This document shows positions 28,488 to 42,643 of a stretch of DNA of 64,000 bases, piece after piece. The position numbers were made by a program, and so were the translations under genes. Numbering within the stretch: the first letter of the stretch is position 1; every line of letters starts with the position of its first letter. The DNA is taken from the NCBI GenBank assembly GCA_016215445.1, contig JACRJL010000001.1, positions 62,001-126,000 of the forward strand, written 5' to 3'. A model generated the notes under the pieces. It was not told where the DNA came from, did no database searches, and worked only from the letters and a program-made list of their open reading frames with translations. Source of the DNA: Candidatus Roizmanbacteria bacterium. GTDB lineage: Bacteria > Patescibacteriota > Microgenomatia > UBA1406 > GWC2-37-13.

Positions 28488-28491
28488 TTTG

Positions 28492-28577
28492 CGGAGAGGG
28501 TGGGATTTGAACCCACGCGAGTCTTGCGACTCAAGGGGTTAGCAACCCCTCGCTTTGGACCGCTCAGCCACCTCTCC
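28492..28577 (-). tRNA. tRNA-Ser(GCU)
   Basis: Acceptor GGAGAGG/CCTCTCC; anticodon arm AGGGG-TTGCTAA-CCCCT; long variable arm; T-arm GTTCAAATC. Confidence 0.93.
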
Positions 28578-28604: not shown

Positions 28605-28807
28605 TGCCGCAGAGAGGAGTTGAACCTCTACCTCTTGCGAGACACGGTTCTGAACCGTGCGCGCCCGCCTGCCAAAGCCTGTGCCGGAGGGGAGAGTTGA
28701 ACTCCCACGCCCTTGCGAGCACATGGTTCTGAACCATGCTTGTCTGCCATTCCAACACTCCGGCTTTAGGCATTGGCGGGCAGATATGCCAGTTCCGCCA
28801 CTGCGGC
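28605..28807 (-). tRNA. Interrupted tRNA-Leu(CAG): 5' part 28785-28807, 3' part 28605-28663, D-loop insert 28664-28784
   Basis: Acceptor GCCGCAG (28801-28807) pairs perfectly with CTGCGGC (28606-28612); D-arm GCG-GAACTGGCATA-[insert]-CGC; anticodon arm CACGG-TTCAGAA-CCGTG; long variable arm; T-arm AGAGG-TTCAACT-CCTCT. Confidence 0.7.
28682..28764 (-). tRNA. tRNA-Leu(CAG), complete, nested in the D-loop of the outer tRNA-Leu
   Basis: Acceptor GCCGGAG/CTCCGGC; D-arm TTG-GAATGGCAGA-CAA; anticodon arm CATGG-TTCAGAA-CCATG; variable arm; T-arm GGGAG-TTCAACT-CTCCC. Confidence 0.93.
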
Positions 28808-41830: not shown

Positions 41831-41849
41831 TTAACCTCCGGGGTTGTAT
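41831..41849 (+). repeat. REP-like imperfect palindrome, left copy
   Basis: TTAACCTCCGGGGTTGTAT; approximate inverted copy of 42623-42641. Confidence 0.7.
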
Positions 41850-41945: not shown

Positions 41946-42596
41946 ATGAGAAGAAAAGAAATTTTTAAAGACGGTGAACTATATCATATTTTAAATAGAA
42001 GCATATCTGGTTTTAATATTCTTAAAGATATTAATAACTGCTGGAGGTTTTTAGAACTATTAGACTACTACAATAATAGATTAGTTGACTGTAGTTTTTC
42101 TCGTTTTCTTAAAGAAAATAATAAATATCAATATGAAAATCTTTTAATACCGAAAGAATTTCCATTTGTTAAGTTTATCTGTTTTAGTTTAATGCCGACA
42201 CATTATCATTTATTGCTTAAAATACTTGATGAGAATAATTTTTCTTATTACATTTCTAATGTAGAGAATAGTTTCAGTCGTTTTTTTAATATAAAATTCA
42301 AAAGAAAGGGTCCTTTATGGGAATCAAGGTTTAGAGCAGTGAGAATAAAATCTGAAGAACAACTTTTACACGTTTCTCGTTATATTCATCTCAATCCAGT
42401 AACTGATTATTTAATTGAAAAGGCCGAAGATTGGAAATTTTCTTCTTATAGAGATTTCATTAATAAGAAGGGATTTCTAAATGAAATAATTAGCGAAGTA
42501 TCGATTAAAAACCCAAAGACCTATCAACAATTTGTTGAAAATCAGAAGGATTACCAACGAAAACTAAAAATGATTAAAAAAACGATTTTAGAATAG
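41946..42596 (+). mobile_element. REP-associated tyrosine transposase (RAYT; IS200-like Y1 transposase)
   Basis: GELYHILNRSISGFNIL; FSLMPTHYHLLLKI (HxH); SRFFNIKFKRKGPLWESRFRAVRI; LLHVSRYIHLNPV. Confidence 0.92.
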
Positions 42597-42622: not shown

Positions 42623-42643
42623 ATACAACCTCCGGGGTTAATA
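42623..42643 (+). repeat. REP-like imperfect palindrome, right copy
   Basis: ATACAACCTCCGGGGTTAATA. Confidence 0.7.

Follow-up and report, generated by a model that had tools for sequence, protein, structure and literature searches.

Structure of the locus

The stretch of DNA analysed here (the window) comprises 64,000 nucleotides (nt) of contig JACRJL010000001.1 from the Candidatus Roizmanbacteria assembly GCA_016215445.1 (Patescibacteria, the candidate phyla radiation) and carries, on its minus strand, a complete tRNA-Leu(CAG) gene within the D-loop of a second tRNA-Leu(CAG) gene. Read along the minus strand, the locus begins with the 5' exon of the outer tRNA (GCCGCAGTGGCGGAACTGGCATA, 28785-28807), which contains the 5' strands of the acceptor stem and of the D-stem and the D-loop through GGCATA. 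It continues with a 5' palindromic arm (TCTGCCCGCCAATGCCTAAA, 28765-28784), the inner tRNA-Leu(CAG) of 83 nt (28682-28764; ARAGORN score 113.8, Rfam RF00005 50.7 bits), and a 3' palindromic arm that pairs with the first (CAGGCTTTGGCAGGCGGG, 28664-28681). Lastly, the outer 3' exon (28605-28663) provides the 3' strand of the D-stem, the anticodon arm with its TTCAGAA loop, the variable arm, the T-arm, and the 3' strand of the acceptor stem, and all its stems are paired. The insert of 121 nt (28664-28784) splits the outer D-loop right after GGCATA. Release of the inner tRNA would leave outer fragments of 43 and 77 nt, the lengths that the initial annotation of the stretch had calculated.

Outside the inner tRNA, the arms read TCTG-CCCGCC-AA-TGCC-T-AAA (28765-28784) and CAGGC-TTT-GGCA-GGCGGG (28664-28681), and the helix that they form has bulges of 2 nt and 1 nt on a single strand only, as judged by eye and with no bulge-helix-bulge motif search made. 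The complementarity described in the initial annotation holds for the arms, except that the third paired block, AAAGCC, takes its GCC from the acceptor stem of the inner tRNA. The nested RNA of 203 nt has a predicted folding energy of -97.6 kcal/mol (z = -4.6 against shuffled sequences). On the intact locus, ARAGORN and Rfam call the inner tRNA-Leu(CAG) alone and miss the outer one, whereas in silico deletion of the insert yields an outer tRNA-Leu(CAG) with an ARAGORN score of 121.1, equal to that of the uninterrupted gene of a sister species (G017). A tally of further tRNA-Leu(CAG) genes, which the initial annotation had called for, gave none in the 936.6 kb scanned of the 940.3 kb genome (three contigs), where the other Leu anticodons TAG, CAA, GAG, and TAA are represented by one gene each.

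The same gene in related species

The uninterrupted form anticipated by the initial annotation is present in the sister species G017, in which the two outer exons are joined; the match breaks at query position 46/168 and accommodates the 121-nt insert, so that the alignment stops and resumes exactly at the proposed borders. Together with the tRNA calls, this empty site makes the description of one tRNA-Leu(CAG) within the D-loop of another exact to the base. The outer tRNA of the window differs from the G017 gene at 2 of 82 positions, both unpaired.

Within the genus, the Leu(CAG) gene exists in two types that are told apart by a GCG or a TTG D-stem. In the fetched loci, which do not amount to a full tRNA census of each relative, the GCG type, to which the outer tRNA belongs, stands alone in G017, G015, and G004, and the TTG type, to which the inner tRNA belongs, stands alone in G016, G013, and G018. 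The window genome has the TTG type nested inside the GCG type, G006 has the reverse order, with the GCG type nested inside a broken TTG type, and G002 retains a TTG 5' remnant adjoining a complete GCG gene. The inner tRNA of the window is 88% identical to the G016 gene and 80% identical to its own outer tRNA. At the end of a contig of G006 (L005), Leu 5' halves lie in series with palindromes in the D-arm and in the T-loop, the nest order being opposite to that of the window. The downstream neighbour of the nested locus is a tRNA-Ser(GCT) gene (28491-28577, minus strand), and the pairing of Leu(CAG) with Ser(GCT) is seen again in the genus.

Palindromic arms

The left end of the 5' arm (CTGCCCGCCA) recurs in a standalone palindrome of the same genome (CCTGCCCGCCATCGGCAATCGCCGAAGGCGATTGGCAGGCGGG, C2:283348-283390), as does TTGGCAGGCGGG from the 3' arm, which is also common to other nested and standalone copies. 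Since this palindrome shares both arm ends with the insert, the search was carried to the arms only, by a pattern free of any tRNA (CTGCCYGCC N85-115 TTGGCAGGCGG). It matched 12 times in 192 genomes of the class, with 0 matches for the reversed-pattern control, and 4 times in 231 genomes of the phylum; the window locus is in both samples, which leaves 15 distinct loci. Each of the 15 has a complete tRNA enclosed by the arms and is sited in the D-loop or in the anticodon loop of another tRNA gene. The cargo is tRNA-Arg(CCT) (two loci), Arg(TCT), Ile(TAT) (two), Ile(GAT) (three), Gly(TCC) (two), Leu(CAG), Thr(CGT) (two), Val(CAC), or Val(TAC), and the arms of a Thr nest from a family other than that of the window (L228) are nearly identical to the window arms. 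Cargo-free copies with the same ends and 4-34 nt between them, sought by exact-match patterns in 97 genomes of the class, number seven, all outside tRNA genes. Because the palindromic family also stands alone in intergenic DNA, the pairing of the arms is not evidence of selection for holding the outer halves together.

The arms resemble repetitive extragenic palindromic (REP) sequences, which are described in papers on them and on their associated tyrosine transposases as short imperfect palindromes that are mostly intergenic and sometimes within genes (PMC3733652, PMC2817692): both the paired arms and the standalone copy CCTGCCCGCCATCGGCAATCGCCGAAGGCGATTGGCAGGCGGG are hairpin-forming imperfect palindromes, and a transposase-like gene lies in the window. 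Unlike REPs, they occur in low copy number, with one standalone and one tRNA-lodged copy in the own genome; they bear no GTAG/CGTC tag at the foot of the hairpin, the ends of standalone as well as nested copies being CCTGCCCGCC and GGCAGGCGGG; and when lodged in a tRNA gene they enclose a complete tRNA that matches the target. The portion available of the REP survey uses the word tRNA only for tRNA-related protein genes (PMC3733652). A high-copy REP invasion of the own genome was considered and dismissed: CTGCCYGCC has five matches against three for the reversed control, and only one other full palindrome is found. A viral vehicle was dismissed as well, as a single IMG/VR scan with the arms pattern returned six GC-rich stretches, none with a tRNA, that are ascribed to chance and serve as a negative control.

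Recurrence and anticodon matching

A pattern for nests of tRNA-Leu, with one Leu D-arm closely before a second, was scanned over 85,462 genomes, and its counts are to be read as "at least". Among the matches listed, many loci have a complete tRNA-Leu after the 5' half of another, mostly in lineages of the candidate phyla radiation (CPR) and in a few others, such as Elusimicrobia (L031); about half of those read lack a tRNA and are due to chance. One nest (L049) sits on a complete chromosome, CP066682.1. Of 384 genomes drawn evenly from the phylum, seven matched the pattern, one of them by chance in a coding sequence. Wherever the outer anticodon is readable among the listed matches, it equals the inner one, with the anticodon CAA in L034, L040, L047, L061, L070, L082, L112, and L136, CAG in L030, L038, L049, L062, L079, and L105, GAG in L046, and TAG in L119. 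The last locus, from Gottesmanbacteria, appears to be a three-level nest, with an extra Leu 5' half upstream of the nested tRNA-Leu(TAG) and part of the structure repeated downstream.

The outer and inner anticodons are also equal in 15 of the 15 arms-only loci; ARAGORN recovers the same-anticodon outer tRNA in 11 of them, and the damaged outer copies of L231, L237, L254, and L255 were read by eye. Outer anticodons were taken from excision at the arm boundaries and by eye, as a scan for the score-maximising deletion picks wrong outer anticodons and neighbouring tRNAs yield trivial matches in it. Where the insert splits anticodon letters 2 and 3, neighbouring excisions score equally in ARAGORN and the third letter needs a uniform border rule at the arm ends, the first two letters being independent of that rule. 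The identity between inner and outer tRNAs is 69-93% across nests and usually 69-88%, which means that the majority of inner copies did not arise by recent duplication on the spot, with the possible exception of L230. In this locus, the inner and outer tRNA-Arg(TCT) are nearly identical from the D-arm to the T-arm and differ in their acceptor stems, perhaps avoiding mispairing.

Insertion sites and state of the outer copies

Two sites recur. The first is the D-loop right before the 3' strand of the D-stem, where the arms run CCTGCCCGCC...GGCAGGCGGG; the second is the anticodon loop, usually between the second and third letters of the anticodon, where the arms mostly have the opposite orientation (CCCGCCTGCC...GGCGGGCAGG). 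Anticodon-loop nests are also present among the listed matches of the Leu pattern, namely L040 and L113, the latter a tRNA-Val(TAC) within a tRNA-Val(TAC). In four Peribacteria-like loci, Leu(CAA) and Leu(CAG) genes alike carry the same pair of insertions at the same two positions, which argues for a strong site preference. The Peribacteria-like loci L034, L062, L079, and L136 share a second hairpin, TCCACCTTCGC...GGCGGACAGG, in the anticodon stem of the outer Leu(CAA) and Leu(CAG) genes. Further inserts occupy the T-loop in L079 and L103, and a hairpin separates the acceptor from the D-arm in L062 and L079. Three loci of Parcubacteria lineages (L047, L061, and L070) have, beside the nested tRNA, a further hairpin in the outer tRNA-Leu(CAA), located between U33 and its anticodon. 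In L207 (G471), a fragment of a Leu gene has a bare palindrome (CCTGCCTGCCGGCAGGCAGG) at its D-loop site, and just downstream lies a tRNA-Leu(CAA) that is of the same type and intact.

The outer copies are found in many states. The anticodon arm is lost in L031, L052, L068, L075, L125, and L133, extra hairpins fill other loops in L034, L047, L061, L062, and L079, and one half is gone in L036, L044, and L066, whereas the inner tRNAs are complete where the outer ones are damaged. In the Peribacteria-like family, the Leu(CAA) gene forms a series: the outer type stands alone in L223, the nested form is found in L136 and L034, a 5' remnant of the outer type lies upstream of the inner type in L211, and the inner type stands alone in most of L202-L222, the "alone" entries resting, as in the genus of the window, on fetched loci. 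The ligase RtcB (PF01139) was not found in the own genome; the splicing endonuclease and other ligases were not searched.

A candidate transposase

A candidate REP-associated tyrosine transposase gene of the Y1/HUH kind lies on the plus strand at 41946-42596 (PF01797, 27.7 bits with a cut-off of 23; NCBIfam NF047646, 61.7 bits, under its cut-off of 80). It is one of two Y1_Tnp candidates in the own genome and may be a mobiliser of palindromes. A palindrome, AACCTCCGGGGTT, flanks this gene on both sides (41833-41845 and 42627-42639) and is of a family different from the arms of the tRNA insert.

Interpretation

The locus is probably the product of a self-rescuing palindromic insert, which disrupts a tRNA gene and at the same time brings its replacement. 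A REP-like palindromic insert bearing a complete tRNA-Leu(CAG) at its tip would have lodged in the D-loop of the tRNA-Leu(CAG) gene already present, splitting it and very probably inactivating this resident copy; the inner tRNA, with its own processing signals all in place, would be excised by ordinary 5' and 3' tRNA maturation and then decode. The nested state would be a way-point of tRNA gene replacement, and the outer halves would later decay or vanish. The initial annotation had offered this course, an outer tRNA killed by a tRNA-carrying REP-like insertion and decoding rescued by the inner copy, as an alternative, and it fits all the evidence, of which the anatomy, the empty site in the sister species, the arm family, the recurrence across the phylum, the anticodon matching, and the replacement series are direct observations. 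We infer that the outer tRNA of the window is inactive, dead or dying, because a working outer tRNA would allow any tRNA as cargo whereas the anticodons are matched, because outer copies elsewhere show every state of damage while the inner ones are complete, because no RtcB was found in the own genome, and because relatives display the replacement series.

Some points weigh against this explanation. The outer tRNA of the window has no stem mismatch and only two changes from its sister, so it has not started to decay; the arms, in contrast to classic REPs, form a rare family, to which no transposase has been linked; and the loss of tRNA-Leu(CAG) need not be lethal, as tRNA-Leu(TAG) may read CUG. 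Moreover, the searches turned up no intergenic copy with cargo, so that survival alone, acting on a cassette that moves freely, is an insufficient explanation. Either insertion targets tRNA loops (the single-stranded loops of hairpins would be a fitting substrate for a Y1/HUH transposase), or a palindrome first lodges in a tRNA and then acquires its cargo; the arms would presumably be mobilised by a Y1 transposase.

The initial annotation preferred that both tRNAs are made, the release of the inner one leaving the 43- and 77-nt outer halves paired by the arms as a split tRNA or to be trimmed and ligated. The outer cloverleaf is intact in the window and, after excision, in several other nests (ARAGORN 122.0 for L040, 121.1 for L112, 119.3 for L082, 119.1 for L105, and 119.7 for L235), perfect acceptor and T stems are frequent among outer tRNAs, the same few loop positions are used in many tRNAs, and the outer tRNAs of L034 and L136 differ by paired changes. 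These changes, however, may predate the insertions, outer copies without an anticodon arm or without a half are common, the arms family also occurs alone, RtcB was not found in the own genome, and the anticodon matching (15 of 15) would go unexplained if the outer tRNA worked. Functional trans-assembled halves are thus unsupported and unlikely, and it is slightly more doubtful still that both tRNAs function with the outer halves matured into a bacterial split or spliced tRNA with a tRNA as spacer, the cassette being a mobile intron at fixed loop positions. The inner tRNA might instead be a local duplicate of the outer one, arising when replication or repair goes wrong at a palindrome that sits in the loop, which would render the matching automatic. 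This, too, seems improbable: the matching is complete, no cargo-bearing copies lie between genes, and the two tRNAs of L230 are 92.6% identical with differences nearly all in the acceptor stem, but inner and outer identities are usually just 69-88%, the inner type in the genus of the window is nearer to G016 than to its own outer tRNA, and both nesting orders exist. An assembly artefact of two tandem tRNAs can be considered only in that the assembly resembles a metagenome-assembled genome, and it is highly implausible given the exact junctions with palindromic arms, the uninterrupted sister gene, and the occurrence of nests in dozens of assemblies made independently, one of them a complete chromosome.

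Relation to known systems and significance

Integrative elements insert in tRNA genes, restore part of the same gene through their attachment site, and encode an integrase. The palindromic insert is similar in that its target is an essential tRNA gene and it supplies what keeps the function, and it differs in bringing a complete second tRNA of different sequence and in encoding no protein; since 83 of its 121 nt are tRNA, there is no room for an integrase gene.

The archaeal split and trans-spliced tRNAs of Nanoarchaeum and others, and the tri-split tRNAs, likewise involve a tRNA gene interrupted in a loop, with complementary leaders flanking the break (PMC10714607, PMC3978253), and the tRNA introns of archaea are able to pass from one tRNA gene to another (PMC10714607, PMC3978253). 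Halves with complementary flanks are present in the window too, where the palindromic element accounts for them; unlike in the archaeal cases, splicing is only hypothetical here, RtcB was not found, the spacer is a tRNA of the same anticodon, and the outer gene is often dead. The closest precedent found is the tRNA-Thr locus of Caldiarchaeum, a tRNA gene proposed to be broken by a recombinase element, with a fragment near another version of that tRNA (PMC3293823); that archaeal locus involves a 1.8-kb recombinase element and introns, as against a palindrome of about 120 nt with a tRNA at its apex. Rickettsia palindromic elements also lie inside genes of small genomes, but these are protein genes, in which the elements are translated through, and they have no tRNA cargo (PMC3733652).

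The open-licence papers searched contain no report of nested tRNA genes; the absence of a described precedent asserted by the initial annotation stands to that extent, and the locus is not unique, since nests are found throughout the phylum. Taken alone, the arms are an element of a known kind, and what is new, within that literature, is the palindromic insert together with a complete tRNA cargo and a matched tRNA target.

For annotation, the locus is a warning, as ARAGORN and Rfam report the inner tRNA and overlook the outer one. Where a small genome has a single gene for each anticodon, its tRNA genes are considered hard to replace or disrupt. The insert would be the smallest form of a self-rescuing element, with about 120 nt, no protein, and the delivery of an isoacceptor of the same anticodon, and it raises the question of how the cargo comes to match the target. 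It would show in concrete terms how essential tRNA genes can turn over, and living relatives display all stages of the process.
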